64,000 bases of DNA from Branchiostoma floridae (Eukaryota > Chordata > Leptocardii > Amphioxiformes > Branchiostomatidae), in contig NC_049982.1 in NCBI RefSeq assembly GCF_000003815.2, positions 18,214,046-18,278,045 on the forward strand, given 5' to 3'. The notes below the pieces were generated by a model. The model did not search any database. It saw only the letters and a program-made list of their open reading frames with translations, and was not told where the DNA came from. Positions 1,936 to 60,362 of this stretch are shown here, one piece after another. A program made the translations under genes and the position numbers. The first letter of the stretch is position 1; every line of letters begins with the position of its first letter.

Positions 1936-2079
1936 CACGCACGCACGCACATTGACAGGTTTCAGTTGTCTTATGTTCTTTTCAGAAACCATCGTCGCCA
2001 TGACAATGACGTTTTTATTGCCAGTCTTGTTGTTCTTAGATCCAGACTTTACACCTCCACGAATCTTCAAGCTGAAGCC

Positions 2080-4346
2080 ATGAATGCTGCAACATCCCAG
2101 CAACAAGGACCCATCTCAAGCCAAAAGGTACCATAAGGGGAGTGTCCCACTGCCAAAGGAGTCGGAGAGAAGCATGAAAACTTTTTTGAATGCCGAACAT
2201 GAATGAGGTTATCTGTATAAGTGAGTTTGTATCTGTGTTTGTAGGTCCATTTGTTGAAAATGATCTTTTAGATGAAGTAGAATCTTGATCCCAGCAGGAT
2301 GCAAAATGTGATGACCACCCCCAAGACTGGAGTGAGAATGGCCCAGAGCACCCCAGGCACCTGATTCCTGCACTCCTCCGACAGTTTTATCACCTGGGAT
2401 GGGTCGCTGGCACTGGAGGGGCATTCAGCATTAGGCTTGGGTGAGTTATGTATTTTTTGTCATAACGTTGCACATGACATTAACGTTAATATCTTCAGCA
2501 CAAAATTTCAAATCCGTTACACCCTACAGCATAACAGATGATATACTAGACTAGAGGAATTTCTGATTGGTAGAAGTAATGAAACAACTTTTTCTGTTCA
2601 GTTTTGTAACCGCTATCTCACATTGATACAGAGATGAAATCTACATTGCACCATCAGGGGTCCAGAAGGAACGCATACAGGTTACTTCCTTCTACTGTTT
2701 TGTAAAGTCGTTTTTGTGGGGACCTTTGTATGCTGTTTGTTCACCGATTCTTAAAAAGATATTAGTACACGTATTTCCTTTGCACCATAACACCAAGGTG
2801 ATAAAACCTCCTTGATGAAATATTTCACTTTTGAATCTATTTTTCATATTCCTGTGAATTCGGTAGAAATGTCATGCAGTAACAAATTTGTTTCCTTCTC
2901 TTAAGCCTGATGACATGTTTGTGTGTAATATGGATGGAGAGGACATCTCCTGCCCTCCCCCTAGCAAGAACCTGAAGAAGAGCCAGTGTACCCCGCTGTT
3001 TATGAATGTCTACACAATGAGAGGTACTCTGATGTTCCTGTTCCACTATCCATATCAAACCTCTAGAATGATTATACTGCTGCTGCTGCAGCGTCAAGTC
3101 TAATTGGTATCAACCGTCCTTTGGCGTAACACACCAGCTTTGCAGGCACCCGCAGTAGTAGCAGTTGGTTATATTACACTGAAAGACCTGTCACACCCAT
3201 TTTTGCACATCTAGCTGTATAAGCATTATCTAAGGTATGACGTATATACATCGTATTGCCGATGCCATATTTTTCACCTTCACGGCTTCACCCCATTATC
3301 ATTACTGCAGGTGCAGGAGCAGTGATCCACACCCACTCCAAGGCTGCTGTCATGGTAACACTGTTGAACCCTGGGAAGGAGTTCCGAATCACCCATCAGC
3401 AGATGATCAAGGGCATTAGAAGGGGAAAGTCAGGAGGGAACTACAGGTGAGTCTGGAGGTACATGTTACGGTATCCTGAAGGTGTACTGTTAGGAGTTGG
3501 TAGCAGACAGTGGCTATTGGAAAGTACTTTCCACAGGGATTTGATACTGATGCTGTTTACCCTTTTAGCGGTTATGTCTTATACTCAGTCTTGTTTCCCC
3601 ATCCTCAGGTACTTTGATGAGCTGGTTGTACCTATTATGGAGAACGCACCTGAAGAAAATGATCTTAAGGTGAGTGAACAGATGGACTGTTGTGACATTT
3701 ACACTTCACTTTAACCACTGACTGTTGGTTCAACAGAACTCTGAATACAGTCAATCAGAACAAGTATATCAATAGCTGCCAATCCAGTACCAATAATCAT
3801 TACCTGCCATGTTTCATGTGTCGCCATGATAGGACCGTATGGTACGTGCCATGGAGGAGTACCCAGAATCCTGTGCGGTGTTGGTGCGGAGACACGGGGT
3901 GTACGTGTGGGGAGACACGTGGGAGAAGGCAAAGAGCATGTCAGTACAGAGATATCCTGTGTCTTTGCTACCTAGCCATTATAGATACTGTTCACAAACC
4001 ACAACATGGATCTGCAGCCATGTGTAATTAATTCTGATTTGCAGTTTTGCATGAATAAAAGTACAACTGATCACTGTCATCACTGGTATCAACTTTGTGC
4101 TGCTTACAAAGGAGTTTGCAATTCTTTTAACCATAAGCATAAAAACATGGAATTCAAAGCATTTGTAACACATGTCAGTGATGATAATATTATTCAAATA
4201 TGTAGACTGAGAATTGGCTTTTGTTTTATGACTTCCCCAGGTGTGAATGTTATGACTACCTGTTTGACGTTGCTGTACAGATGAAACAGTTTGGCCTGGA
4301 CCCTGCCCAAAAGCCTGACCCTGCTGTGGAGAAAGGCATTGTTTGA
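2080..4346 (+). CDS. APIP: APIP copy 1: methylthioribulose-1-phosphate dehydratase-like, probable catalytic Glu-to-Gln substitution
   Basis: Eight exons: 2080-2127, 2298-2440, 2632-2680, 2906-3023, 3311-3446, 3609-3669, 3833-3939, 4241-4346. They total 768 nt (255 aa) with GT-AG borders and matching phases. The family is a cytosolic zinc aldolase-fold enzyme that dehydrates methylthioribulose-1-phosphate in methionine salvage; human APIP also binds Apaf-1 and restrains cell death. Visible landmarks are substrate-contact Cys108 in KKSQCTPLF, zinc ligands His126 and His128 in HTH, and His206 in RRHGVYVWG. The position of human Glu139, proposed as the catalytic acid/base, reads CAG: THQQM with Gln150, where copy 2 reads THQEM. 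The glycine-rich TGTGGGIS motif is also altered to TGTGGAFS. No stop or frameshift is present, so this is a conserved but possibly non-catalytic paralogue. An AATAAA lies at 4646. Product identity is certain; loss of activity is inferred. Confidence 0.9.
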
Positions 4347-4744: not shown

Positions 4745-5345
4745 GAACACAATACACCCATAACCAAGCATACCTGTCCTTGGTGCTGAACACCATACAC
4801 CCATAACTGAGCATACCTGTCATTGGTGCTGAACACCATGCACCCATAACCAAGCACACTTGTCCTTGGTGCTGAACACCATACACCCATAACTGAGCAT
4901 ACCTGTCCTTGGTGCTGAACACCATCCACCCATAACTGAGCATACCTGTCCTTGGTGCTGAACACCATACACCCATAACTGAGCATACCTGTCCTTGGTG
5001 CTGAACACCATGCACCCATAACCAAGCACACTTGTCCTTGGTGCTGAACACCATACACCCATAACTGAGCATACCTGTCCTTGGTGCTGAACACCATCCA
5101 CCCATAACTGAGCATACCTGTCCTTGGTGCTGAACACCATACACCCATAACTGAGCATACCTGTCCTTGGTGCTGAACACCATGCACCCATAACCAAGCA
5201 CACTTGTCCTTGGTGCTGAACACCATACACCCATAACTGAGCATACCTGTCCTTGGTGCTGAACACCATGCACCCATAACCAAGCACACTTGTCCTTGGT
5301 GCTGAACACCATACATCCATAACTGAGCATACCTGTCCTTGGTGC
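4745..5345. repeat. 43-bp minisatellite, about 14 units, with ABAC higher-order order
   Basis: The unit contains CCTTGGTGCTGAACACCAT followed by ACCCATAACTGAGCATACCTG, 43 bp per unit. Units differ at CCATACA, CCATCCA or CCATGCA and at CTGAGCATACC or CCAAGCACACT. Scored left to right they run roughly A B A C A B A C A B A B A, a 172-bp super-unit in part. Because 43 is not divisible by three, all minus-strand frames give periodic open frames of up to 246 codons; these are not genes. The array lies 0.4 kb past the stop codon of APIP copy 1. Confidence 0.95.
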
Positions 5346-6573
5346 TAAATACTCACAAATAAACATGTCTGTTCCTGCACAGTCCATATTCTTTCCCACT
5401 ATGCAATGCATCCAATATTTGTAACATGGTTCAAGGTCTCTACATTTGAAAATGTAAATCAGACGCCTTGTGTTTTATTTGCCAATCTTTTTTTATGTCC
5501 TCACTTTAAATTTGTATCAATAAGATTTACTTTCAGTGCTGTGTGAAACATAAGGACAGATTCATTTAACAAATCTATTGCTTATGAGATGTTACAGCAT
5601 ATCTTTACTACCTTCATCCTAAAATTGTTGATCGGTGCACAATGTCCGTAGACTCTTGCTGTCAGGAAACAAAACAACACTATTAATGTACGTTTGCGAA
5701 TGCCAATATTTGATATTTGAAAGGTAAAAATCAATGTCTGCACAGACTGCACTCAAATCCATCAATCTACTAGTTGTAGCCTAATAAGATTATTGTAGTT
5801 TTATGTTTGAGGGAAAAAGTCATGTACATGTATGTGTGGGTTACCCAATGTAGGATGAGCTGACTGAAAACAATCACTTATTGACTGTTAAACACAAGAT
5901 CAACAGTAACTTAGAAACTATCTGCTTTTAAGTGTACAGTTTAGAATTGGGGAATAGTTGGATGTGATGTTGGACTCATGTGAGATATATTTTAAGCTTG
6001 CACTGCTTATGGGCATAGTGCTAACACTTCACAAGGGCACCTTGCAATGTCAGTTTTCAAATCAATATTCAATAAAACCACAGGATTATGAATAAATATT
6101 CCAGTGTTTCAATTGTTCCCCATAGTTTTCCTAAACATTTGGCAGACCCACAACACCTTCCTGGTTAATTTTCCTGTGTAATGCCACTTGAACTACGGAA
6201 GAAAACACAACATAGATCTTCTTCATAAATAAAGCACAACTTTCCTGCTAGTGGTTTAATTCCAACAATCTGAAGCTCATTTGTGACAACAGTGTAGAAC
6301 TAACAAATTCAATATTCATGGTCAATACATTTTCAATCTATAAAATAATACATTTAAGAACAATTTGTTTTTTTTTACAACAAGCTTTCAATTAAATAGG
6401 ACTGAAACTGAAAGATTCTCTAAACATGCCAACATGTTCTTTTTGAAAGACTTTTTCACAAACTGAAGAGGAGGTTTCTACAAGACTTGCTGTAATTACC
6501 TTGATTGCACAGGAAAACAAGTCTAAGTATCACAAGAATTTGATCCTAACACTAGTATCATAGGTATATATGA
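5346..6573. other. Convergent intergenic DNA between APIP copy 1 and PDHX
   Basis: AT-rich sequence between the 3' ends of two convergent genes. I see no protein-like open frame, RNA gene or recognisable repeat apart from the minisatellite on its left. It probably contains the 3' UTR of PDHX (minus strand). Confidence 0.6.
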
Positions 6574-9500
6574 TCATAACAATGCTGCTTTGAAAGGATT
6601 CTCCAAGTTTTCTTTAAAGTTCTCCAGAAAGGTGGAGGCCAGGGCATCATCCACTACTCTGGAGTCAGAACAGAGTGTCACAGTCATGACAGTTTTTGTT
6701 GTGTGTCCATCCTCCGTGGGCTCCACCAGGACACGTGAGCCGCCGATCGCCATGATACAGGACTGTGGGGGGTTGATGATGGCACTGAACTGGCTGATGC
6801 CAAACATCCCCAGGTTGGAAACACTGCAGAGACAAGGGAACACAGTGAGCCATGTTCTGATGCATTACATGTATTGGCAAAAGAATGCAATGTGTGAACA
6901 GCAATGTGTGAAGTGCCAGAAAGAGCTACATGTAAGTTGCTAAGCTATCTTTTCAAACCAATAAAACTACAAACACAATTATGTCTGCAAAATTGAATGA
7001 AGCCACAGCGATTATCTGGATTTAACAGTGTACCAGTTCTTCCCATCAACTTTAAAGATAACTCCTAAAGACAGTCAGTAGATCAGACCTGAATGTGCCT
7101 CCTTGGTACTCCTGAGGCAGGAGTTTACCTATCCGTGCTCTCCCTGCCAGCTCCTGAAAAATAGGACACTCTTTCAGCTGATACTTCAGAACACCCACAT
7201 CACTCTTCTACTTCTATCTCAACATCTGTTCCTCAAAACAAAATTCTGCACAAACATATGGAAAGCTCTTAACCTTACTGAGGCTTCATGAGTTAAGAGT
7301 ATTGAGTACAGAAGAAGAACTTTATTGCGTGACATTTGTAACAGGTACAATGTATGGCAATCTATGTATACATGGAAGTTGAACTATACAAGAGCAGTAT
7401 TCATTACAAGCCTGTATTGCACCATGCTTGTTTATTACCTTGACAGTTTCTGAGATGTTCTGTAGTCCCCTGGATGGTACATCTGTTACTATGGGAGTAA
7501 TCAAGCCTTTGTCTGTTGCCACGGCAACTGATATGTCCACATTGGAGAGCAGCTGCACCGCCTCCCCCATCCACTGAGCGTTCACCTCAGGTACCGTCTG
7601 TGTAGGCAGAAATCAGGGAAGATTTTAAGCTATGTTTTACATGTATGTCTGTCTCTCTGGCTTGTAAAACTGGTGAAATCATAATACCAAGACAGGGAAA
7701 ATATATCCCTGTAACAAAGTTGTGTAAGAGAGGCATAAGACTGCAACCAATATAACTTACCTTGAGTGCCTGCCCAACGGCCTTGATGATAAAATCATTC
7801 ACAGAAACCTTTACACCAGAACCTTGGAACAGGAGGGGAAGTTGGGGTTGAACAACACTTGTATTAATGTACATGCAAAAAGGAGCATACATGTGATACG
7901 CTTTGATGCAAATCTATATCAAGTTAGAGGAACCCAAAAGCTTGGTCAAATCAATGCCCAAGACTGTCATACTAGCTTAAGCCATGTTAAGTCTATTGGA
8001 TTACTTTGTTTTACCTTAACTCTCTAAAGCACAGGACCAAGTCTATAATGGCTTTCTTTCTCAACCATAAACTGCATAGCAATAGTGTTGTAATGTTGTG
8101 CAATTTTATCTCATGCAAAAGATCTGACATCTGTTGTAAAAGGTCTGTCCTTTCATACTACTGCCAAGGAGTGAACAGAATGATTTACATGTCAGCTGAA
8201 TCAACTCATCACATCCACCACTTCCAAAATTACCTTGTAGCTGTTTTCTGAGTCTCAGGACTGAGCCCATCTCACAGTCTATACTGCTGTAGGCATGTGG
8301 CACTGTAGTCTGGAATGTACAGGAGAACAGATAAGATACAGAAGAACAACCTACAAATGTCAAACTATTGTCTGATTAAGTTTTCAATGTTAACTTGTTT
8401 AATAGGTGGGCATACAGCTGATCAGAGTTATTAAGAGCAACTTTGCACAATTATTACATTTGAATACAGCCGGCAGATACATTGAAACAAGTGAACATGA
8501 CACATATTGTGGTTTAAGAGAAAAGGAATACAAGTCCTACCTTTGATTGTGTGAGTCTTTTTGCTATTACCCTCCTCATGCTTGTGTGTGGGATGTCAAC
8601 AAACTCATCCTGAAAGACATATTTTTGACAATCATGTCTGAAACTGTCTGAAAACCTATGGAAGAGCTACATATGCTTTGAGTTTTTCTGGTATGCATTA
8701 TGCATTTTGCTGTTAACTTTTTTTTACCGGTATATCTAGTTTTTCTTCATCACACAACTTGCCCATTTTCACTTGACACCCCCCTCTAGTCCACCCCATG
8801 TATCAGTTTGTGCTTACCTCCTCTGCTGCAGCAGGGGGTACTGCAGGGTGTGTAACTGGGGGAGGGGGTGGGGGAGGAGCAGCCAAAGGGGTGGGGGCAG
8901 AGGGCATGGTAGGAGCCACCACCTCTTGTCTCCTAGAACTGGGGTCACCAGCAAGGAACTTCAACACATCCCTGGAGAACAGTATGTTAAGTCATAAATT
9001 CTCTTCACTTATAAATAACTTTTAAAGATGACAACATGACTTACTAGTACTACTTTTTAAAATAGTTAGATTACAAGTAATAACCCAGGACCATTGATAT
9101 ATTATTAGGCTTAATTAATGCTGCGAGTCAAGGTTGTCAGATTCCCTGTTCATGCCTTCAATTATTTTCATAGATAGTAGATCTATCAACATGTTACACA
9201 CCTTTTCTTCGTTTCATTAATCTATATATTTCTATCAGATAGAACACAGAGAAGTAGACTCAGCCTTGACTTGTTATTCAAAAGAATCGTTCACCCACCC
9301 TTTGAGTAGTCTTCCATGTGGACCAGTGGGTACAATAGCTGCAGCATCCAGACCGTTGGAATCTACCAAGTACCTTACTGCAGGGGACAGGTCAACATGT
9401 CTGGAAAAACAAACAAACATGTGCATGTCAGTGCACTGTTGTACTGGAGACGGAAACAACTGACTCATGAATGAGTCTGAAGTTGCAAAGACAACACACC

Positions 9501-11300
9501 ATGGCTGTAAAAAATTCCTACCACAGACAGTCCTACTTGTCATATGAAGATACAAATGTCTAGATATGTACCATATCACACCAATTATAAAAGTTCTTGG
9601 CCCTTAGGCCTTACCCTTTTCCCCCTGCCACATGTCTCATGGATGAAAACTCTGATGAGGAGGTGTCCTCTGTGGCTGTAGGTACAGGGGCATCAGCAGG
9701 GGTGTCCACTGCAGCAGACGGAGTGCCTGTCTCTGTTGGGATATCGACCTGAGTGTGGTCTTCTCCTTCAGCCACCATCAGGGCTATCAATTCATTGATA
9801 CGAACATTCTTTGTGTTCCCTGGGACCTGTAAGGGGCATCAGAATGTTAACATAACATAAATGACAAACTGTCTGTGCCTATACTACTAGTATATTTGTA
9901 CCTCATGGTATAAAGTACATTTGGAAAAAAGACAAGTTTTTCTCTGTAATACAGAGACATTGCTCCAATTCCTAGAACTAGTCATCCAAGATCCCTGCTC
10001 TTGAAATAAATTCCTTCATCAAAAGTTGTTGAGATATGAGTATTTAGCGCAGAATTTACAGCATAATATATAAAAAATATTACACTTTTCAACACTCTTA
10101 ATAATGACTTCATTCACTTTGTTTGGCCAAATTTAAACTTACCAAAATTTTGGCCATGACTCCATCATCATCAGCATCCATTGTAAGTGTTGCTTTGTCT
10201 GTCTCAATCTCACACAGTGGGTCACCAGCTGCAATTGGGTCTCCTGTAAAGAATAAACATCAAGAACCCAAAACAAGGTCGATAAGTATGTACAGCATTA
10301 GACTCTTGTCAGATTTCAGAGTGAAGCAATTTCCATTTAACACCTAAAACAAGATCATATCAGGATTTTACAACAGATAACTGTGTCTGAAAATGAAACA
10401 AACTTAAGAGATGGTAAATTTTAGACTTCCCTCAGCCAATAAATGGGTACAAGCTGTGTGCTTCATTTCATGAATTAGTGATATTATTTCTGAGCCGCAG
10501 AAATGTGCAAAAGTACAACTACATTATGATGTGATAAATGATGACAAACCTTCCTTTTTCAGCCATGAGATGATGGTACCTTCCTCCATAGTGGGGGACA
10601 GGGCTGGCATGTGCAGCTTTATTGGAGCTACACCTGATCAGAGATGTGCAGAGATTAGCTGACATGTTGGTTACAAGTCATACTTGTGTACATTACTCCT
10701 AAACTGAAGAGAGTAGACATCTAATGCACCGCATTACTGCTCACGCACCACACACCAATCAGTAGTACCGTTGCCTTTTCTTTAATCAAAGTCGTAGCAT
10801 ACTGTAATGTCACACATTCAAAATGATTCTACTGAACACAAAAAGTTTTTTTTTTTTTCATAGAAATAATTTAATCAGGTTCGTAGAATATATCATATGA
10901 CTGATGAGAATTCTTGCACACAACCAGGATGTACTTTATTCGATGAAAATCATTCCTTTATTTGGAACATATGATCATTAGAATCAAAGGTCTGAATCCT
11001 TGACAACAAAGGAATCAGGGTTAATGTTTTTTTTATATATATATTGATGGTTAACTTCTCGGATGATGCAAGAAATTGATCATGGTGGGACAGATGTGAA
11101 AACTTGCCCCTCCCCCTCCATCGAAAAATAACCTTTTTACGTGCATCAACTGACTCTAAATATTGAAACTACCCACCGAATACTTCTGGTGTCCTGTAAA
11201 AGTTCCTGTACCATTCTGTGCAGCCTGCCGGGCGCCCTAAGGTGTGAGAAGGTAGAAGTTTGGTCCGACCTAACGTCCTCCACAGGACAGAGGACGCCAT
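6574..11300 (-). CDS. PDHX: PDHX: pyruvate dehydrogenase complex component X (E3-binding protein)
   Basis: Twelve exons, 5' to 3': 11177-11300, 10550-10633, 10143-10243, 9615-9826, 9299-9400, 8818-8971, 8541-8609, 8234-8309, 7761-7822, 7439-7597, 7089-7153, 6574-6823. They total 1458 nt (485 aa), near the usual length of about 500. Residues 1-40 are Arg/Ser/Leu-rich, a mitochondrial targeting peptide. One lipoyl domain (about 45-120) carries the lipoyl Lys86 in EIETDKA. An Ala/Pro linker, a peripheral subunit-binding domain (about 175-210, LSPAVRYLV), a second Pro-rich linker and the acyltransferase-like core follow. The E2 active motif DHRVVDGA is replaced by SDSRVVDDA (455-463), so catalytic His is Ser457; this and the single lipoyl domain mark component X rather than DLAT. 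It anchors E3 to the E2 core in the mitochondrial matrix. It is divergent from APIP copy 2, as in human. Confidence 0.95.
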
Positions 11301-11750: not shown

Positions 11751-14282
11751 ATGAATGGTGCAACATCCCAACAACAACAAGGAGGAACCATCTCAAGGGA
11801 CAAGGTACATATTTTAGGATCTAAAGAGGCACTTATAAGTTTAGTGGGTGGGCCGAATATGGGAGGGGCGTGCCTTAGTCTTAGATATTCTTCTCATCGT
11901 GACAGAATGTTGTCATCTGTAACGTTATAACTCTCTGTGTGTTGACTATTTAAATTTTTTGAAATAAAAAAAATCTTAAACCTGAGGCTTTTGAAAAAGA
12001 TACTCTTTCAGACATTGTCATTTCTATCTTTCATAGCCAGTATGTTCAATTTGATTGGTGGCAGCTGTAAGTATTAAACCTTTATGTTTTGTGGTTCTTA
12101 AAGAGCTTGAACCTATGTCATTATTTTATATAAAGCTTATAATACATGTTTGCAAAATCAGGTTTTAAAACGTGGTCTCCACCCCCAAGACTGGAGTGAG
12201 TATGGCCCGGAACACCCCAGGCACCTGATTCCTGCACTCCTCCGACAGTTTTATCACCTGGGATGGGTCACTGGCACTGGAGGGGGGATCAGCATCAAGC
12301 TTGGGTAATTTTTAAAAAAGTAAAATCATGTGTTTTCCCACAGGTATTGTATCATAAATGTACTGTGAAAAAATCCTGGTGAGAACCTTGTAACGTTAAC
12401 CAATTGAAAGACAAATAATATAAACACTGTCTGACTGATGTATATGGTGGCAAAATCTCATGAAGCAACATTTCTTGCTTACTCAGGCCATACAGGTTTA
12501 GTGTGTAATGGTATTCATCTTACCGTTGCTTTTGTTACAGAGATGAAATCTACATTGCACCTTCAGGGGTCCAGAAGGAACGCATACAGGTTGCTTCCTT
12601 TATCCTTCCTTCATGTGTTGTGTTTACTCTTTTAACTAAGCTGCTTACGAACTACTAGTATATGCTACATGTTCTGATTCCTGTAAAAAATGTTAATATA
12701 CACAAATGTATGTATTACATATGTTCTATGCTACAATTACATGTAGTAAATGTTTTGGAATGAATTGACCTGAGTTACAAATTTGTTTCCTTCTCTTAAG
12801 CCTGATGACATGTTTGTATGTAATATGGAGGAAGAGGACATCTCCTGCCCTCTCCCTAGCAAGAACCTGAAGAAGAGCCAGTGTACCCCGCTGTTTATGA
12901 ATGCCTACACAATGAGAGGTACTCACGAGTTCCTCAATCTATAGTAAACCTACAGAATAGTTGGTACTGGAACTATAAGTCTACTTGTTTCTGAGTCTTA
13001 AGTCGAGATTTCGTGTATTGAGCATAATTATTACTTTTGGCATTTTCGTTCACTTTCATCCCATTACCATTATTGTAGGTGCAGGAGCAGTGATCCATAC
13101 CCACTCCAAGGCTGCTGTCATGGTAACACTACTGAACCCTGGGAAGGAGTTCCGGATCACCCATCAAGAGATGATCAAGGGCATTAGAAGGGGAAAGTCA
13201 GGAGGGAACTACAGGTCAGTGTGACATCAGGTTAGGGGCAGAGATAGTTTAGGGTAGGTGGTAGGTGATGGTAGTTGTAGTTGCATAGCATTAGTTGTTA
13301 GAAACAATTTTTAACAGGGACTGAACATCACTGCTGTTTCTCCTTGTATATCTTATACATGTACTTGTATCCCCATCCTCAGGTACTTTGATGAGCTGGT
13401 TGTACCCATAGTGGAGAACACACCTGAAGAGAAAGATCTCAAGGTGAGGCACGCATTGCTGTAACCACTGACTGTTGGTTCAACAGAACTCTGAATACAG
13501 TCCATACAGATTCCATGTAGTAGATCATTTGTTGCTAACCAAGTACAAAACATACCTGCCATCTTATGACATTTCCTTAAGACAATGTCGTACATTGTAT
13601 GGTAGTCATCTTCTACTGCTGGATTGAGTTTTTTAATGAAAAATACTAAATACACTGACTGCACTGGTTTGGTGACCATATGATTTCTGAACAATAGTCA
13701 GATGAAATTTCTCAGACTTCCCATTGTTCTTCATGACAGGAGCGTATGGCTCGTGCCATGGAGGAGTACCCAGAATCCTGTGCGGTATTGGTGCGGAGAC
13801 ATGGGGTGTACGTGTGGGGAGACACGTGGGAGAAGGCAAAGAGCATGTCAGTACTGAGATATCCTGTGTCTTTGCTACCTAGCCATTATAGACTGCAGAT
13901 ACTTTTCACAAACCATGTTATGGGTCTGCAGTCATTTGTGATTGATTCTACTGTCTGCAGTATTGCATAATGGATGCCAAATAACGCTCGGTATTAGCTG
14001 TATGTAATCTCAGATAAACCAAGTCATATGTTTGTTTTTCTAGCAAAACAGTGCGCATATTTTTTAATACAAGCAACAAACAAATTACACAGCACATATG
14101 TAAAACACATGTACATTTGTATATAATGATGATCTTACATGAGCACGAAATGACTTTTGTTTCATGACTTCCCCAGGTGTGAATGTTATGACTACCTGTT
14201 TGACGTTGCTGTACAGATGAGACAGTTTGGCCTGGACCCCGCCCAGAAGCCTGACCCTGCTGTGGAGAAAGGCATTGTTTGA
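11751..14282 (+). CDS. APIP: APIP copy 2: methylthioribulose-1-phosphate dehydratase, catalytic residues intact
   Basis: Eight exons: 11751-11804, 12162-12304, 12541-12589, 12801-12918, 13079-13214, 13383-13443, 13740-13846, 14177-14282. They total 774 nt (257 aa), close to the 242 of human APIP. Exon borders and phases match copy 1 one for one. All key residues are present: Cys110 (KKSQC), zinc ligands His128, His130 and His208, and catalytic Glu152 in THQEM, equivalent to human Glu139. The glycine motif is the canonical TGTGGGIS. It catalyses the dehydration step of methionine salvage in the cytosol. Introns 6 and 7 still align with those of copy 1 (for example TAACCACTGACTGTTGGTTC), so the duplication is fairly recent or has been homogenised. 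This is the copy that keeps the head-to-head position with PDHX and is probably the working enzyme. Confidence 0.95.
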
Positions 14283-15316: not shown

Positions 15317-18300
15317 ATGGCGGAGGCAGATGCTAGTAAGTTGCCTGCTAGTTGGTTACAACCTTGCAATAGCCAGAGGACATTGCATAGGGATATACAT
15401 CATAACTTAAACACTTCAAGTGGTAGGGATTATGTTTATGTTGCTCGTAGGCCAGACCGACACGTCTGTTGACTGATTGTCTGACCTTTAACATAGGAAT
15501 TGTCACGTCGGATCACGTTGTCAGAAGACATGTCATTTCAGGGCTGGAGGTCCCGAGGATTTTTCACTGTTTGGTGTGTCGATGGTCCACAAATGTTGTC
15601 TGTGTCAATGTACTGATGTTTTGTCAGGTCTGGAGTGTATTGTGAAGTTGGGAGGGAGTGCCGTCACTGACAAGAGCACACTTGAAACACCTCGGCTGGA
15701 CGCCATCAGGGCTGCTGCAGATATCATCTCACAAGTTAGGGGGCGCTGCATTGTCGTCCATGGAGCTGGGTAAGATTCATTCTGGAAATTTAGTTACGTC
15801 TTCCACCGTAACCGATTTTTTTTATTAGATAACTCATGAATTTTATCCTTTTCTTCTTGAGTTATCTAGGCCACTATCGAATTGACAATCCTTCCAAGAC
15901 TATGCCATGGGTTGTTTGTAGTACTTTTAAATTTTACTATATATTAAACCTGCTACCCTAACTGAAGTAACGTTACAAAAGTGTCGCATCATTAGCTTCA
16001 CAACACATATTGTGGCCATGGAATATGATTGCCTTCGCCAAGAAGGTTAACGCTATACGTCATGTATGTTGCCGTTTGTGTGTATGTCTCTTGGTCATCA
16101 AAATAACTCAAGAATGGCTGGATGGATAGGGTGTGACAAAAACTGAAATTAATTAGATGTTGGGTCCCCGAAGGCTTTCAAGGGTAATACAGCAGAATTT
16201 TCTGTTTTGATATCTACGCGTGTTCTATACGTGCTATGGTTATGAATTTTAGGCGGTAGATAGTTCTTGTGCTCGGAAAGAAGTGGACCCTCTAGCAGCT
16301 GATTCGGAACTGCAGGTACGTTTCAAGTGCAAGCTTGAAGCCATGTGAATCATGACGGAATTAATGAATTTTCACGATTTTTGAACTGTACATTAAAAAA
16401 ACTTGCTAAATGACAGGACCTTCATTCTCATTACGCACGTAACTTGGTTCTAGAGGGGTGTAGTGCATTAGTGGTAAATGACGTCATACATATTCAGCTT
16501 GTTCGCATTCACCATGATCCCAGCTCTGCTCATACCTTTGCTAATTGTTTCCGTCTAGTAAACTGTCGTCGCCAATGAAACGGCCATCGCCTTCCTACGA
16601 GTATCAGCATACTCCGTACAAACCGTGGCTTACCAATGTTACCGTGGCGTTTCCTGGCGTTTAGGGCTTGACTTGGCTTTTTGACTATGGACCGAACCGG
16701 AGGTTGTGCGTGTTCGCATTTTTCGATAGAATATTCACCATTTATTAATTGCGATCTTGTCGTGCTTTTGTGATTGAAATATTGCTTTGTATACGTTTTT
16801 GATTTGTTATGAAATGCTCGGATGTGGTATCAGGGAAATTGGGACGATAGTTTACGTGTCGGACACGCGCCACGCTTACTCAGTGACAGATCGTACTCTT
16901 GCGATCACGTGAACACTTGCGTTGGCGGGAGCAACTACCGTGGAATGACTTTTCCAGCGCCCCCATTTCCTGCAAAGGACATCAAAGGAAATATCTAATA
17001 GCTTTTTTGTCCCACTTAGGAACTGTACAATAAATGACACGCCATTTGTGCTTGGCCATTTCCGCTGTTTTATTAGTATGTGTATTCCTATATTGCAGTC
17101 TGTCACATAACTACGATATACACCGCACAGTTGAACAATGTCAATGGCGCAACCCATCAAAAAGCGATACAGGGCGTGCGGCTCTCAATTGCCACACAAA
17201 TAGTCCGGATATATTGTTTACACGTTAATGGAACAACTACGACATCTAGTCCGCAACAAAGGTCATGACTATTGTCTCCTTCAAAAAGAGAGGAAGCAGT
17301 TTTCTTCAACATAATTATCAATTCTGATTCTAACATGCCTTTTCTCTTCTTCTTCGCATGCACAAGATACTCTTTATTTCCCTGTACTAGCGGTTAGATT
17401 AAATGTTGGCGTATCGTTGATTTGCACCTTTTGCCCATGACCATGTGTAAGGTAATCACTTGCGGGATATAACATACACTCAGTCGTGAAACAGCCGGTA
17501 CAGATGAGTGACCAGGTCAAGCGGACTATCCGACCCCCTTTTTACCCACGCCATCAGTTCAACGATCCCCCATCTTGGCATGGAGATGTCAGTGAACCCG
17601 CTGTAAATGTTGTATCTTATTAGCTTTGGAAGCGGTCACACATGTCGCACGATCGTCGTACGATCACAAACTGATGAGGGGATTCTTTAATAGGATAATC
17701 ATGCATGTGTCGCACAAAATTCAGCAGTCATGTTTCGAGCAAAGCTGTCCGATACGGTTGGTTCTGTCACCGTCTGCTTGAAAGCTTCTACGACACCAAA
17801 ATCGCACGACGACCTATGACGATGTGACCGTGCCGTTAGTTGTTACAGCAGGATGTTAGATTTGCCACAACAACTCATGGTATACCCACGATGAATGGGA
17901 AATTTCGTAGCTTGTTAAGGTATCCTTAACTTCGGAATGCGCAAACCCGATGATAGGTAGCTTAGTCCAGGCTTGGTGACTCATGGCACAGTACTAAAGA
18001 TAAGCCGATTCTTTTGCTTTCTGGCCAAAAATGGAATAATGATGTTCAATCCATCCTTTTTGTTGTGTGGCACCCCGGTACTTACCGAGCAACATGATTA
18101 TGACGAAGTAGCTATTTTTGCAGTATCCATTTACTTTTGTAGGTCCAGATCGTTTCCCTAGCGCTTTTTTCTTGAAAGCCAATGGTCGGTCTTTTCAGAG
18201 TTTACTAGCTAGCCTGGTAACATTGTAGTTACAGATGTACTTTGCCGGACTTTACCGGATGTACTTTACCGGACCACCACAGGATCGATGTTCTAGGATG

Positions 18301-53300: not shown

Positions 53301-56300
53301 GAAATATTTCATGGGAAGCATTTCTTTCTATCTCCTGTAGAATGCAATTTTGGCCACACTGCAACTCTTCCGTTCTTTGGGAAAATTCGTGAGACGCAGA
53401 CTTACAATCGCAGATTCTGTAGTGGCTGGTCTGGACACTACTACCCATGGAAACTTACGTGTGTAACAAACGACGTACGATAATATACATACTTTTAAAT
53501 CAATATTTAAACCAGAGTCCAAAACTACCTTAGAGCAATATTAATCCAACATTGACCGGTCAACAAAGTTGTCACTAATACATTTATTTCTGATTGGTGT
53601 ATCAATGAAAGGGGTAGTTAATTATTTTTAATATCATTTCGTGTCTAAACTATATGACAGAAACTGTTGTTCTCAGAAATGCTATCGTTTCAGAAAAGTC
53701 AAACGACTGAGGGCCGATGTGTGCCGATGTTGGACGTACAGAGCTCCATAAAGACGTCGACAATTACCTCTATCGTACGCGACATGTTCTGACGGATATG
53801 TCCTGTCCTTACGGGTCAAACATGCTCATCACTTCACGGCCATATATCAGGTATCTAACTTTCCACTTAAGTTTATATCATTTGTGTTACAGCCATGTTC
53901 GCGCCGAAAGTAAGGTATTCCAGAGTTAAACACTTTCCAAGGCGTCGGTTCCGTGCACCAAAGCGTGTTTCCGGAACAAGGGCTCATGCTGCAACTACAT
54001 ACGCTGTTTCAAACGTTCACTTCGACTTTCCCACCCCTTATGTTAGGGTCAGCCATTGGGTAATTACAACGCACTCTTCAAATGTTGTAATACAGCAATC
54101 CTATCTACACATAGTTCACGGGTCAGGAGCAATGTTAGGAGTGCCACGTGTTTTTCTGCAGTAGGGTTGATGAGGTTGAACTCCATCTGAGTGGTTGAGC
54201 AGCCGTTAAGTTAAGTAAAAACACCAGGCTGTGTACACATTGGCCTTGACGTTGATATTCAACAGAGCTGAGTTGTTGGAGTACTGCAAGGCAATTAGAG
54301 AGCTATGCAGTCAACAACATTCTGCATTGAGGGAAAATATAACGAGAAGTTTCCAATCGTGATGCTTGTGTACTGTTCCTGACAGACTGTTGAATGGCTG
54401 GTTGGTTTGCTGCTTGACCATTTGCAAAATTAATCGTGTCCGTTGGAATGTTGACATACAGTCACTGATGCCGTCTCCTCAGCGTAACCTCGCCCGCTGA
54501 CCATAGCATATGTANNNNNNNNNNNNNNNNNNNNNNNNNNNNNNNNNNNNNNNNNNNNNNNNNNNNNNNNNNNNNNNNNNNNNNNNNNNNNNNNNNNNNN
54601 NNNNNNNNNNNNNNNNNNNNNNNNNNNNNNNNNNNNNNNNNNNNNNNNNNNNNNNNNNNNNNNNNNNNNNNNNNNNNNNNNNNNNNNNNNNNNNNNNNNN
54701 NNNNNNNNNNNNNNNNNNNNNNNNNNNNNNNNNNNNNNNNNNNNNNNNNNNNNNNNNNNNNNNNNNNNNNNNNNNNNNNNNNNNNNNNNNNNNNNNNNNN
54801 NNNNNNNNNNNNNNNNNNNNNNNNNNNNNNNNNNNNNNNNNNNNNNNNNNNNNNNNNNNNNNNNNNNNNNNNNNNNNNNNNNNNNNNNNNNNNNNNNNNN
54901 NNNNNNNNNNNNNNNNNNNNNNNNNNNNNNNNNNNNNNNNNNNNNNNNNNNNNNNNNNNNNNNNNNNNNNNNNNNNNNNNNNNNNNNNNNNNNNNNNNNN
55001 NNNNNNNNNNNNNNNNNNNNNNNNNNNNNNNNNNNNNNNNNNNNNNNNNNNNNNNNNNNNNNNNNNNNNNNNNNNNNNNNNNNNNNNNNNNNNNNNNNNN
55101 NNNNNNNNNNNNNNNNNNNNNNNNNNNNNNNNNNNNNNNNNNNNNNNNNNNNNNNNNNNNNNNNNNNNNNNNNNNNNNNNNNNNNNNNNNNGTCATTCAT
55201 CTGTTGTAGTCATTCAGTGAGGGGACAGAAAATCCTAGGAAAATGTGTCCCCATTCTCGTAATACATTCAGCGAGGGGACAGGAAATCCTAGGAAAATGT
55301 GTCCCCATTCTCGTAATACATTAAGCGAGGGGACAGAAAATCCTAGGAAAATGTGTCCCCATTCATCTGTTGTAGTCATTCAGCGAGGGGACAGAAAATC
55401 CTAGGAAAATGTGTCCCCATTCTCGTAATAAATTCTGTGAGGGGACAGGAAATCCTAGGAAAATGTGTCCCCATTCTCGTAATACATTAAGCGAGGGGAC
55501 AGAAAATACTAGGAAAATGTGTCCCCATTCATCTGTTATAGTCATTCAGTGAGGGGACTGAAAATCCTAGGAAAATGTGTCCCCATTCATCTGTTATAGT
55601 CATTCAGTGAGGGGACTGAAAATCCTAGAAAAATCTGTCCCCATTCTTGTAACACATTAAGCGAGGGAACTGAAAATCCTAGGAAAATGTGTCCCCATTG
55701 ATCTGTTATACATTCCGTGGAAATTGTGTCCCCATTCTCGTAATACATTAAGCGAGGGGACAGAAAATCCCGGGGAAATGTGTCCTCATTCACCTGTTAT
55801 ACATTCCGTGAGGGGACAGAAAATCCTAGGAAAACGTGTTCCATTCTCGTAATACATTAAGCAAGGGGACTGAAAATCCTAGGAAAAACTGTCCCCATTC
55901 TTGTAACACATTAAGCGAGGGAACTGAAAATCCTAGGAAAATGTGTCCCCATTCATCTGTTATAGTCATTCAGTGAGGGGACAGAAAATCCTAGGAAAAT
56001 CTGTCCCCCATTCATCTGTTATAGTCATTCAGTGAGGGGACGGGAAATACCGGTTACCCCGGGGAAATATGTCCCATTCACCCGTAAGGCATCTCCAAAA
56101 AGTCATATTTATTTGTTTTAGAAACATTGAAATTAATGTCAAGAGTTGTAGTTTCAAGTCGAGAAACAGGTTTCAAATTTGACCACAGTGAGACTAGTTG
56201 ACTTGTAGCTGATGGACACCTTTGGGATATGTTAACCTGGAATCCCTACAAATGTCGAACTAATGAGCCTTCTTTTTTGGTTGAATGGTTTATTGGACAT

Positions 56301-58276
56301 AGAGACATAGCGATTACAAACAAAAACATCACACTTGCAGTCATTGTAGTGACTGAATTGCGNNNNNNNNNNNNNNNNNNNNNNNNNNNNNNNNNNNNNN
56401 NNNNNNNNNNNNNNNNNNNNNNNNNNNNNNNNNNNNNNNNNNNNNNNNNNNNNNNNNNNNNNAGCGCTCAGTGTGTGATGCCGTGCTGGTCAGCCAAACA
56501 GATTCAGATTTACCCAACATGACTCAGATAGCTTTCTTTCGGACGAGTATATGCTGCACGCGGCGTTTCTTTACCTGTGACTGTCTTACTGTTGGTATGG
56601 TTGCGTTCAAACAGGACTTTTGTTCTTATGTCCTCCTGTCCAGGGAAATGTGTACAATACAAACGTTCAAATACCTGTCCGTAAAAAGTTCGGTTTGGAC
56701 TTTGGTCATCATAAACAGGCCCTTAAATTTACGAATTTAAGGGCTCCGTAGTCTGTGACTGAATGTGTCGTCTTTCATTAGTACCTTCATCTGTATTCAT
56801 TGTATTTTTATGTCTGGACGAGGGCTAGTAAAGGTGCAGTCACCTGTTCCATCGCCCCTAGGCCTGCCACTTGAGTGGTGAATTTTAATAAACACACTGT
56901 CACGTAAACAAATAAACAAACAGTTTGTGGAATTTCTGCCAATATTTATCAGTTTCTCCGTGGCTACAGACTCTGTCTGCCCGGTGCACCTTCCAGGTGT
57001 CCCGGAGTGCTACAAGGTCACGCCAGACGAGCAGGTTATCGCGGCACGTAGTAAAGAAAACAGGTCCATTCGGAAACATCCCCTCCTAGAGGACGTGTAA
57101 GAGACTTTGGATAATTTCAATGAAGACTAAGAAACGGCTCCTAACCTAGTGCTTTTCAAAACAAAAATTGAAACATCAGAGTGCGGACAGGCTACAGAAT
57201 GACGAATTATTCAGTCTTATGTATGCGGCGATGACTTCTGTAAGACACACCAAACTCACCTGCATGTCCTCATGTCTGAGGGGTGAAGAAGTTCCACCGT
57301 CAGGCTGCCGCTCCGGTGTCCTTTCTGAGCCTAGTGCGTTCACTTGCTCGAAGAGCTGTAGAATTGTCCCACTTTGGTTATAGACTAAGTTTCGAACTTC
57401 CATTTGGAATTTGCTGTTTTTCGCTCGCTCTTCTCTCATTGTCAGTTTTAGCTGCTGAATGAGCGTCTCGTGCGCCGTTAGGACTTTGTCGACTTCTTCT
57501 CTGTCCCGTACAAGGCTCCTTATCAAGTTGTCTTGGTTACTATTTATGCCTTCTAGCACTGCCAGTCTGTCCTTCAGTTGTCTAATCTCTATTTCCAGAT
57601 TACGGTCCGGTGGAGCCTGCTGCGGCGTGCTCGGCTTCTCCTCGCGGTGCAGCCTCTTCATGAACTCCGCGGACTTGTTCAGCACGTTCCTCTCCGTCTC
57701 CAGGAGTCGCGTGGTCAGTTCGCTCCGGAGCTGAGCGATCTGGGTCTGCATGATTTCCCACCGGCGGGACATGGCCTGTATGTCCTGCTGCCTGATGCCC
57801 GTGTCCGCGGCGTTACAGGTCTGCTTCGCTAGGGTTTCTGGCACGATGAACGTGTAGGCACACTGACCGGACCCTGGTGCCAGGACCTGCGCTAAGGTCT
57901 CTGCAGCCAGGCTGGGGGAGGGTGAGCCGTGGGCAGTTTGCCCCTCCCCCGTGACCGGAACATTAGTTCTGACATTGATAGTTTCTACCTCGGGCAGGAC
58001 AGCGCCAAGTCCCTCAGCGGCCCAAGACGCCGTTGCCTTTCCGGCTACTGCTTTCTTCAGCCTTTCTGTCTCTTCAATGGCCTTATGCTTCTCACTGTCG
58101 GTAAGGACAGACCCCTCCCCCGCCTGTTCCCCCTCCGTAGCCCCTTGGAATTCCCGGCCTGCGAGGGACGCGGTTTTCCCGGCCACGGATTCTCCATCGG
58201 CGAAGGTCAGCGTTCCGAACAAGCACAATACCGCTAAGCTAGGAAGCACGTCCCTCCTGAGCACCGTACAGAGCAT
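33813..58276 (-). CDS. Secreted coiled-coil protein with angiopoietin-like N-terminus and unrecognised six-Cys C-terminal domain
   Basis: Six exons, 5' to 3': 57260-58276, 49022-49143, 46935-47029, 35108-35262, 34448-34592, 33813-33922. They total 1644 nt (547 aa); every junction is GT-AG and in phase. Residues 1-26 are a signal peptide. An Ala/Glu-rich segment is followed by GQCAYTFIVPE (137-147) and Cys154, nearly identical to the GQCAYTFILPE clustering motif of angiopoietins. A long coiled coil (about 160-320) continues through exons 2 and 3 to about 411. Angiopoietins then carry a fibrinogen domain; here residues 412-547 instead hold six cysteines (TCNSC, VVLC, DHC, SYC, YEC) and motifs GDQYVKRTKY, TPTRYKIFLSD, GQGQDHCEF and GPIGYDGTGK. 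I do not recognise this domain. Expected role: oligomeric extracellular matrix or ligand protein. The weak point is the 11.8-kb intron joining exons 3 and 4: the two halves could be separate genes, the second starting at the 16-nt exon 35362-35377. Confidence 0.65.
33955..34230 (+). mobile_element. tRNA-derived SINE, near full length
   Basis: The head resembles a tRNA gene with an A-box-like GTAGAGCGGTGGG and a B-box GAGTTCGATACCC, typical of polymerase III SINEs. The body has CTTCCTCACTTCACCCAGGT and ATGGGTACCTGATTTTGGTC, and the tail GTGACACATTGTCCTTGTCT ends in an A-rich run. Body and tail recur at 1784-1935. It lies in the last intron (33923-34447) of the long minus-strand gene. It is not a functional tRNA gene because no cloverleaf 3' half with acceptor stem can be drawn. 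Confidence 0.7.
36700..37130 (-). pseudogene. Tc1/mariner-type transposase relic
   Basis: On the minus strand, in slightly shifting frames, are VARRFGGVQVSQPLL (about 37053-37103, like the first helix-turn-helix of Tc1 transposases), EETGSV just downstream in another frame, and SSDETRIFVRSD (about 36750-36790), resembling the FSDESRF-x-DGR segment around the second catalytic Asp. Frame changes and a stop between them show it is dead. It lies in an intron of the long minus-strand gene. Family placement rests on motif order only. Confidence 0.5.
37150..40983. other. Intronic DNA of the long minus-strand gene
   Basis: No exon supported. A minus-strand open frame at 38781-39044 contains a basic stretch SRRSMWIRKQLLEEFG, which faintly recalls the RR-x-WVRPW region of PIF/Harbinger transposases, but there is nothing else to support it. 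The rest is unremarkable. Confidence 0.35.
40984..41083. other. Assembly gap (100 N)
   Basis: A run of exactly 100 N, the usual placeholder for a gap of unknown size. Confidence 1.
42399..42813 (+). CDS. Orphan open frame, possible exon, weak
   Basis: An acceptor-like TATCCCAG precedes 135 or more sense codons ending in a stop at 42813. Composition is protein-like: third positions favour C and there are several N-glycosylation sequons (NVS, NGT, NMT, NDS). There is no ATG at its start and no neighbouring exon was found. It lies antisense in an intron of the long minus-strand gene. It may be a terminal exon of a nested gene or chance. Confidence 0.25.
42904..42917. repeat. Poly-C tract (14 C)
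   Basis: An uninterrupted run of 14 C preceded by CCG. Such tracts are slippage-prone, and its length may be unreliable in the assembly. Confidence 0.95.
43780..44052 (-). repeat. Dispersed repeat family, minus-orientation copy
   Basis: The reverse complement of this stretch contains TCTCCATGAGAGAGACTGGA, TCTGTCTGTCCGTTCGTG, TTTCCGGATATTTGTGG, GTGACTTTGGTACTACT and CGATATGCTATGGTCTTG in the same order as the copy at 31.49-31.85 kb. The hairpin end is partly lost. Confidence 0.75.
44291..44443 (-). CDS. Small open frame (50 codons) with protein-like composition, weak
   Basis: From an ATG at 44443 the minus strand reads 50 codons to a stop. They include VFRENCVKEGYLGYILVQPD, which looks like real protein. 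An acceptor-like GTTCCGTAG lies just upstream. The overlapping longer minus-strand frame (44383-44715) is in a different phase. No partner exon was found, and it matches no family I know. Confidence 0.25.
   Translation of the reverse strand: MHSEVFRENCVKEGYLGYILVQPDAEDRDVGQVIKTDVGKICMKTLNHTR
44444..46934. other. Intronic DNA of the long minus-strand gene
   Basis: Apart from the overlapping open frames near 44.4-44.7 kb and a short GAGT-rich run at 46828-46868, nothing distinctive is visible. No fibrinogen-type exon, which would be expected for a true angiopoietin, was found here. Confidence 0.4.
47254..47313. repeat. (AGT)n microsatellite, about 20 units
   Basis: Nearly pure AGT/TAG trinucleotide run with one GTGG interruption near its left end. 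It reads as poly-Ser or poly-Tyr in open frames, which are not genes. It lies in an intron of the long minus-strand gene. Confidence 0.98.
49540..50170 (-). pseudogene. Non-LTR retrotransposon reverse transcriptase relic
   Basis: Minus-strand motifs in order: VFIDFHQAFNTT (about 50089-50125; RT motif A, IDF-x-KAF), LDFADDIALLENTSQ (about 49940-49985; motif C with catalytic FADD), VTDFKYLGGSQI (about 49815-49860; the FKYLG segment), then SILLSGFEAWDSSQTRK (about 49650-49700), typical of the region after the RT domain in non-LTR elements. Stops and frame changes intervene, and the 5' part and endonuclease are absent. It lies in the first intron of the long minus-strand gene. Confidence 0.7.
50200..54514. 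other. Intronic DNA of the long minus-strand gene
   Basis: About 4.3 kb without a supported exon. Open frames at 50317-50523, 51540-51872 and 53154-53483 (+) have no recognisable motif. The first has an acceptor-like TTTGTGTTGCAG just upstream and an acidic Glu-rich stretch, but no partner exon was found. Confidence 0.35.
54515..55191. other. Assembly gap (677 N)
   Basis: A run of 677 N directly abutting the left satellite array, so the array probably continues into the gap. Confidence 1.
55192..56095 (-). repeat. Left satellite array, 54/58-bp unit, inverted relative to the right array
   Basis: Units read GAGGGGACAGAAAATCCTAG, GAAAATGTGTCCCCATTC, then either TCGTAATACATTAAGC (54-bp form) or ATCTGTTGTAGTCATTCAG (58-bp form). 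Each unit contains an imperfect palindrome of about 32 bp bounded by GGGGACA and TGTCCCC and centred on TCCTAGGA. Roughly 16 units are present, with divergence and partial units towards the right. The reverse-complement array lies at 59.04-60.36 kb. Periodic open frames in it are not genes. Confidence 0.95.
56096..56285. repeat. Non-tandem inner arm of the large inverted repeat, left
   Basis: This stretch is the imperfect reverse complement of 58862-59040. Shared landmarks are GACCACAGTGAGACTAGTTG, GATATGTTAACCTGGAATCC and CTACAAATG, ending near AATGAGCCTT. It shows that the two satellite arrays belong to one inverted-repeat structure rather than being independent. Confidence 0.85.
56363..56462. 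other. Assembly gap (100 N)
   Basis: A placeholder run of 100 N within the loop of the inverted repeat. Confidence 1.
56955..57100 (+). other. Open stretch with coding-like look, strand uncertain
   Basis: After TATTTATCAG the plus strand reads about 48 codons to TAA, including VCPVHLPGVPECYKVTPDEQ. The minus strand is also open and reads NLLVWRDLVALRDTWKVHRA. Either could be an exon or part of a mobile element. It lies in the first intron of the long minus-strand gene, about 160 bp from exon 1. No partner exon found. Confidence 0.25.
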
Positions 58277-58494
58277 GCTTGCTTACTGGAGCCTCGCTTC
58301 TGGCTCTCAGCTAGCGCCCGAACTGTGTAACCTAAGATAGCGCAGCATCACAAAAACGCTACCGCGGGGGGAAGTCCGTCTGGGCCCGACAAGTCCGCTT
58401 TCCTGCCTGCTCTTGGCTGAACTGCCAGGGCCTGTGTCGCCCCGGGAAGTGCCCTGTCCGTGGTCAACTGTGATAGATGTGTCGGTCCTTTCGT

Positions 58495-59040: not shown

Positions 59041-60362
59041 GTAACCGACTGAATGACTATAACAGATGAATGGGTACACATTTTCCTAGGATTTTCTGTC
59101 CCCTCGCTTCATGTATAACAGATGAATGGGGACACATTTTCCCGGGAATTTCTGTCCCCTCGCTGAATGTGTTACAAGAATGGGGACACATTTTCCCGGG
59201 ATTTTCTGTCCCCTCATTGAATGTATTACGAGAATGGGGACACATTTTCCTAGGATTTTCTGTCCCCTCACGGAATGTATTACAGGTGAATGAGGAAACA
59301 TTTTCCCGGGATTTTCTGTCCCCTCACAGAATGTATTACGAGAATGGGAACACAATTTCCTAGGATTTTCTGTCCCCTCACTGAATGACTACAACAGATG
59401 AATGGGGACACATTTTCCTAGGATTTTCTGTCCCCTCGCTTAATGTATTACGAGTATGGGGACACATTTTCCTAGGATTTTCTGTCCCCTCGCTTAATGT
59501 ATTACGAGAATGGGGACACATTTTCCTATGATTTTCTGTCCCCTCACAGAATGTATTACAAGAATGGGGACACACTTTCCTAGGATTTTCTGTCCCCTCG
59601 CTTAATGTATTACGAGTATAGGGACACATTTTCCTAGGATTTTCTGTCCCCTCACAGAATGTATTACGAGAATGGGAACACAATTTCCTAGGATTTTCTG
59701 TCCCCTCACTGAATGACTACAACAGATGAATGGGGACACATTTTCCTAGGATTTTCTGTCCCCTCGCTTAATGTATTACGAGAATGGGGACACATTTTCC
59801 TAGGATTTTCTGTCCCCTCGCTTAATGTATTACGAGTATGGGGACACATTTTCCTAGGATTTTCTGTCCCCTCGCTTAATGTATTACGAGAATGGGGACA
59901 CATTTTCCTAGGATTTTCTGTCCCCTCACTGAATGACTACAACAGATGAATGGGGACACATTTTCCTAGGATTTTCTGTCCCCTCGCTTAATGTATTACG
60001 AGAATGGGGACACATTTTCCTAGGATTTTCTGTCCCCTCGCTTAATGTATTACGAGTATGGGGACACATTTTCCTAGGATTTTCAGTCCCCTCACTGAAT
60101 GACTACAACAGATGAATGGGGACACATTTTCCTAGGATTTTCTGTCCCCTCGCTTAATGTATTACGAGTATGGGGACACATTTTCCTAGGATTTTCTGTC
60201 CCCTTGCTTAATGTATTACGAGAATGGGGACACATTTTCCTAGGATTTTCTGTCCCCTCACTGAATGACTACAACAGATGAATGGGGACACATTTTCCTA
60301 GTATTTTCTGTCCCCTCGCTTAATGTATTACGAGAATGTGGACACATTTTCCTAGGATTTTC
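59040..60362 (+). repeat. Right satellite array, 54/58-bp unit
   Basis: About 24 units reading GGGGACACATTTTCCTAGGA, TTTTCTGTCCCCTCGC, TTAATGTATTACGAGAAT or TGAATGACTACAACAGATGA. Towards the right it is organised in higher-order blocks: two 54-bp units plus one 58-bp unit (166 bp, starts at 59933, 60099 and 60265) and three plus one (220 bp, from 59713). The left end is more diverged than the right, suggesting recent expansion at the right. The 54-bp unit keeps frame (18 codons), giving periodic open frames on both strands that are not genes. Confidence 0.95.

Follow-up and report, generated by a model that had tools for sequence, protein, structure and literature searches.

Glu139 of human APIP is taken here to be the proposed acid/base residue of the enzyme, a wording that reportedly goes back to Kang et al. 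in PNAS in 2014. In this chemistry zinc coordinates the oxygens of the substrate and a general base shifts its proton. Besides its part in methionine salvage, APIP holds back cell death, and three papers used engineered mutants to test whether its jobs can be separated (PMC3532061, PMC5008309, PMC6602929). According to PMC5008309, human mutants of C97, H115 and E139, residues described as essential for MtnB activity, give no growth rescue on MTA; the same mutants stimulate growth and AKT/ERK as APIP does, and zinc-ligand mutants still form multimers. PMC6602929 states that C97A, H115A and E139A proteins are without MtnB activity and wild-type-like on hypoxia signalling (data not shown there), describes the enzyme function as independent of apoptosis inhibition and related to pyroptosis, and announces an E139A knock-in mouse. 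PMC3532061 reports that a triple His mutant of human APIP failed to rescue and that an inactive short isoform had no dominant-negative effect on the full-length protein; it also mentions, without a residue number, a conserved glutamate important for substrate deprotonation.

The window analysed here, a stretch of 64,000 nucleotides from positions 18,214,046 to 18,278,045 of contig NC_049982.1 of the lancelet Branchiostoma floridae, carries two APIP genes (Table 1). In the open-licence literature, no paper was found on this lancelet APIP duplicate, on amphioxus pseudoenzymes or on amphioxus methionine salvage. Both genes score far over the 137.05-bit cut-off of TIGR03328, the NCBIfam model of MtnB/APIP enzymes. 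In each, the frame is open, all seven introns are GT/AG, and the exon cuts fall at matching places. The copies lie ~10 kb apart on the same contig with a PDHX-like gene in between, and their alignable intron and flank columns are mismatched at 149 of 737, with 116 more gapped. The mismatches, the same-contig placement and the intervening gene rule out a folded-in allele, and copy 1 is a real tandem APIP duplicate. When the whole genome (513,431,437 bases, 431 contigs) was searched in six frames, exon by exon, for the protein of copy 2, 16 candidates yielded 15 exon matches; each lies in one of the two window genes, so no third APIP copy or extra haplotype copy was found. A genome search with the Pfam class II aldolase model gave 11 matches, two in the APIP copies and nine in loci L035-L041, where no tblastn match to copy 2 was better than E 1.5 (runs of N occur in three of these loci). 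The 6 kb upstream likewise held no further APIP copy (best E 0.91).

Table 1. Features of the window, numbered from its first base
Feature	Position	Strand	Remarks
APIP copy 1	2080-4346	+	eight coding exons, 255 aa; TIGR03328 228.5 bits
Exons, copy 1	2080-2127, 2298-2440, 2632-2680, 2906-3023, 3311-3446, 3609-3669, 3833-3939, 4241-4346	+	
Exon 2, copy 1	2298-2440	+	T42A, G47A, I48F, K51R
Exon 5, copy 1	3311-3446	+	46 codons compared with copy 2: one amino acid change (E139Q) and 5 synonymous differences
CAG codon, Gln150 of copy 1	3400-3402	+	human Glu139 position
APIP copy 2	11751-14282	+	eight coding exons, 257 aa; TIGR03328 231.8 bits; catalytic residues all kept
Exons, copy 2	11751-11804, 12162-12304, 12541-12589, 12801-12918, 13079-13214, 13383-13443, 13740-13846, 14177-14282	+	
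GAG codon, Glu152 of copy 2	13168-13170	+	human Glu139 position
PDHX-like gene	6577-11300	-	borders approximate, exons assembled by eye; top PDB hit human PDHX (6h60, E 1e-131)
Upstream ATG frames	2000-2083		ATGs at 2000 and 2006
Minisatellite	4745-5346		14 copies of a 43-base unit
Isopentenyl phosphate kinase-like exon	15630-15770	+	NF040647, E 4.7e-7, 29 bits, below the cut-off of 120
Inverted minisatellite arrays	55194-56048, 59048-60362		54-base units
Open stretch between the arrays	57176-58282	-	368 residues

The PDHX-like gene (pyruvate dehydrogenase E3-binding protein) and copy 2 are arranged head to head, and its 3' end faces that of copy 1. The human PDHX-APIP pair presumably has the same head-to-head arrangement, so copy 2 is most likely the parent, with copy 1 placed beyond the far end of PDHX. 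At the acetyltransferase site where CDHRVVDG carries what we take to be the catalytic His, the PDHX-like protein reads CSDSRVVDD (SDSRVVDD against CDHRVVDG), so this His is replaced, as it is in human PDHX. Around copy 1, a minisatellite lies just downstream of the gene, and the stop of two upstream ATG frames overlaps its start codon, should they be transcribed. Further along the window, one exon resembles the start of isopentenyl phosphate kinase. Two inverted minisatellite arrays, with arms of up to 395 nt that are 96% complementary, enclose ~3 kb with an open stretch that has no Pfam match, and the whole resembles a mobile element. No Pfam match was obtained for nine long frames in other parts of the window.

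The first-pass annotation had reported Gln at the human Glu139 position of copy 1, within a span (3361-3446) that proves to be the larger part of exon 5. This was confirmed: copy 1 reads THQQM where copy 2 reads THQEM, with a CAG codon against GAG, and the alignment to human APIP (4M6R) is ungapped in the region, with Cys97, His115, His117, Glu139 and His195 in their expected places. The 15-base pattern spanning the codon occurs in the window at only these two places (100 shuffles gave a mean of 0.00). Copy 1 keeps Cys97 and the zinc ligands His115, His117 and His195, and the rebuilt gene is open across its eight exons, again as first reported; copy 2 keeps all five residues, Glu139 included. 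An alteration of the TGTGGGIS motif, also claimed from the first inspection, holds as well, since copy 1 reads AGTGGAFS: human residues 43-49, GTGGGIS, become GTGGAFS, with T42A just before. In full, the changes that belong to copy 1 are T42A, G47A, I48F, K51R, E80G, A104V, E139Q, T167A, K171N and A178V, and from human position 181 on a single residue (K/R) separates the two copies. Copy 1 has thus lost a catalytic residue while keeping its metal ligands and open frame, and it stands beside a catalytically complete paralogue. Of the marks of the MtnB/APIP family, it has the zinc histidines and a Cys at the Cys97/Glu97 position, with Gln in place of the catalytic Glu139.

To place this change, the Glu139 column was followed across relatives, of which human was the only other animal sequence and the survey rows were all prokaryotic. 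In two prokaryotic phyla, a gene over the TIGR03328 cut-off was present in 82 of 282 and 26 of 299 genomes, and 111 rows over the cut-off were aligned (L044-L099 and L104-L158; 56 search loci and 55 fetched afterwards). The column holds Glu in 109 rows, Arg in one, Thr in one and Gln in none, and in the Arg row as in the Thr row the Cys97 column is Asp. Each of the three zinc His columns (human 115, 117 and 195) is present in 111/111. The Cys97 column itself divides into 60 Glu, 47 Cys and 4 Asp, and Glu139 is kept in all 47 rows of the Cys97 type. MtnB enzymes hence comprise a Glu97 type and a Cys97 type, the latter frequent in the survey of the two phyla and also present in animals; human APIP and both lancelet copies are of the Cys97 type, and copy 2 shares 41-56% identity with the Cys-type genes of prokaryotes. 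An earlier scan of bacterial and archaeal genomes had found 23 relatives, all with Glu at this column, and adding 11 loci of plasmids and viral contigs brings the tally to 30 Glu of 34; this set overlaps the larger survey (L001, L003 and L016, for example, recur), and the two counts are not summed. The four exceptions are distant viral-contig loci with Thr at this column; their identity to copy 2 is 17-20%, and at Cys97 they have Asp. On viral contigs, neither a single-protein scan nor a bacterial-type alignment found a relative, and a Cys97-type alignment found six loci. One viral-classed contig of 257,533 bases (L024) holds at 1001-1603 a Cys97-type MtnB gene that is 44% identical to copy 2.

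Several features suggest how the substitution would act in copy 1. Firstly, the Glu97 type has a carboxylate in both columns and the Cys97 type only at Glu139; copy 1, with Cys and Gln, has one in neither, so that loss of catalysis is likelier than the bare E139Q substitution would imply. Secondly, in the eukaryote-type enzyme Cys97 replaces the bacterial-type Glu97 and makes Glu139 the sole carboxylate of the two columns, and Gln139 would then leave copy 1 without a general base for the substrate proton. Finally, G47A, A104V and T167A suggest a lifting of enzyme-specific constraint. A Glu-to-Gln change can leave weak activity, and, judging from these residues, copy 1 has probably lost or nearly lost methylthioribulose-1-phosphate dehydratase activity. 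It would be classed as an MtnB/APIP paralogue rather than a working member of the family, with catalysis carried by copy 2 beside PDHX. The copy 1 protein should fold, bind zinc and assemble as APIP does, although its folding is not certain, given that PMC7162832 describes a related aldolase domain as unstable once its proposed active-site Glu was changed to Ala. Alternatively, copy 1 could still be a zinc lyase or aldolase that acts on the same sugar phosphate or a different one, Cys97 or water serving as the acid/base. The intact zinc ligands and Cys97 would suit such an altered enzyme, as would a 139 column that is not absolute, with Thr in four viral-contig loci and Arg and Thr in 2 of 111 rows. 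Yet all six of these exceptions carry Asp, and thus a carboxylate, in the Cys97 column, no Cys97-type row is without Glu139 (47/47 Glu), and human E139 mutants are reported inactive in PMC5008309 and PMC6602929, all of which makes an altered enzyme distinctly unlikely.

Copy 1 has also changed faster than its neighbour. Across the part alignable to human, the copies differ at 15 amino acids, and human agrees with copy 2 at 10, with copy 1 at two and with neither at three. This gives 10 changes specific to copy 1 against two specific to copy 2 (exact p 0.039), or Fisher p 0.075 when the 10 and two are set against an assumed 10 and 10 synonymous changes. In the 47-row Cys-type set, 47 of 215 compared positions are invariant (one gap allowed), and four of the 10 copy 1 changes (G47A, A104V, E139Q and T167A) fall on them, compared with 1 of the 40 differences between human and copy 2 (Fisher p 0.004). 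Blind placement expects 2.2 such changes and yields at least four with P 0.15, so the changes of copy 1 show neither avoidance of conserved sites nor a significant excess there; the numbers of changes behind these tests are small. If gaps are disallowed and human and copy 2 join the set, 38 positions are invariant, and the copy 1 changes at 104, 139 and 167 fall on them. With the first five relatives as reference, the comparison is 4/10 against 4/40 (p 0.041), and a stricter definition gives 3 changes with 3.0 expected. The remaining changes include some that appear unalarming by family comparison: K51R and E80G reach residues common in the Cys-type set (44/47 and 39/47), and the residue reached by I48F occurs in 16 of 111 rows. 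Ten changes placed at random among the 215 positions strike at least one of the five catalytic residues in 21% of cases, so that Gln139 alone proves nothing about selection and was rejected as proof of it.

These counts fit a duplicate on which constraint was lost recently and which is drifting to a pseudogene, with Gln139 as one of several neutral changes. Such decay, which we consider possible though short of probable, is favoured by the 10 to two imbalance, by changes that meet invariant positions about as blind placement would have them in both reference sets, and by a low synonymous divergence between the copies. It has to contend with a gene free of stops, frameshifts and splice losses, and, with an even split of synonymous changes, full neutrality would be expected to produce more than the 10-13 non-synonymous ones of copy 1 (p 0.005-0.016); with only 4-7 synonymous changes on copy 1, however, the test of 13 non-synonymous ones is not significant (p 0.12-0.52). 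Counting puts pairwise dN/dS at 0.34 over the whole protein and 0.19 in the core, and codon likelihood gives 0.43 (below 1, p 0.008) and 0.26 (below 1, p 1.7e-4), values that average both copies and all time since duplication and are thus no proof of present constraint on copy 1. An assumed even synonymous split would put dN/dS at ~0.28-0.36 on copy 1 and 0.06-0.14 on copy 2, figures that lose their force if few synonymous changes fell on copy 1. The dN/dS check proposed in the first-pass annotation speaks in two directions, with a pairwise value below 1 that argues against a long-dead pseudogene, and a copy 1 that is faster and does not avoid conserved positions. At the N-terminus, 13 non-synonymous differences stand against one synonymous difference between the copies; positive selection on this fast stretch was considered and rejected, the sites being too few. 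The picture is one of relaxed constraint that includes catalysis, in a copy 1 not yet freely decaying.

The probable loss of activity is compatible with a further reading, which adds retention: selection may have kept copy 1 for a non-catalytic function such as Apaf-1/caspase-9 inhibition, growth signalling or the regulation of copy 2 within mixed tetramers. With most of its chain preserved, the C-terminal region included, copy 1 could act as a non-catalytic APIP in death or growth signalling or as a mixed-tetramer partner, or it could be early in decay. Retention would agree with the open frame and intact splice sites over eight exons, with pairwise omega below 1, with an exon 5 that has one amino acid difference against five synonymous ones, and with exons 7 and 8, which hold three amino acid differences from copy 2 between them. 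The upstream region of copy 1 is also unlike that of copy 2, without a BLAST match except for ~25 bases beside the ATG that align as an extension of the exon 1 match, and catalytically dead human APIP retains activity in PMC5008309 and PMC6602929. Nevertheless, copy 1 has changed faster than copy 2 without sparing conserved sites, and the short inactive human APIP is not dominant negative in PMC3532061, which leaves selective retention somewhat unlikely. Of the retained pseudoenzyme originally proposed for this locus, the pseudoenzyme half is supported by the identity of Glu139, its conservation in the family and the separability published for human mutants, whereas retention for function is not shown by a gene with 10 changes to two and no avoidance of conserved sites.

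The divergence between the copies suggests that copy 1 is a young duplicate. Synonymous divergence is 0.14, and alignable introns and flanks stand at 0.236 (JC). Taken with the mutation rate of 5.89e-9 per base per generation from the PMC12862219 abstract (the exponent differs in the introduction of that paper), the two values place the duplication ~12 to 20 million generations ago. Divergence this low indicates that the duplication is probably confined to this lancelet lineage, unless conversion of whole exons reset the clock, an option kept alive by introns and flanks more diverged than synonymous sites. Patchy gene conversion as a cause of the low exon divergence was rejected, as the exons do not differ in their share of synonymous differences (Monte Carlo p 0.61) and thus give no sign of patches. 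Heterozygosity in B. floridae is ~3% according to PMC12862219, so some copy 1 changes, perhaps E139Q among them, may still segregate. Against a dS of 0.14, this heterozygosity would allow about a fifth of the differences to be polymorphic, and Gln139 rests on a one-base difference; a base-call error or minor allele, in which the base at 3400 is not typical of copy 1, is nonetheless very unlikely. G47A, A104V, T167A and six further changes specific to copy 1 are independent of that base.

Dead enzyme paralogues are already known as a kind, and the nearest example lies between the two APIP genes. PDHX resembles copy 1 in being an E2-related paralogue without the enzyme's catalytic His, and it is old, with an established role, kept as a structural partner, whereas copy 1 is young. 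Human APIP/MtnB (4M6R) belongs to the same family and has Cys97 and the three zinc His in common with both lancelet copies; over 215 aligned positions, copy 2 is 81% and copy 1 ~78% identical to it. Unlike the human enzyme, copy 1 has Gln139, Ala47, Phe48, Val104 and Ala167, and its enzymatic role is likely lost. Further counterparts are the engineered human C97, H115 and E139 mutants. Copy 1 is altered at the same catalytic residue with its zinc ligands and Cys97 intact, and it is useful precisely because the change falls on a residue used for separating the roles of APIP. A natural copy without the catalytic glutamate beside an intact copy would offer a test in an animal that branches near the root of the chordate tree. 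That copy 1 is a natural separation-of-function APIP, free of the metabolic role and kept for signalling in cell death or growth, or as an inactive subunit tuning mixed tetramers, is on present evidence unlikely, but if true, a lancelet duplication did what human E139A does in the laboratory. The engineered proteins differ from copy 1 in being laboratory-made; copy 1 is a natural paralogue that carries Gln rather than Ala, has more changes and stands beside an intact copy.
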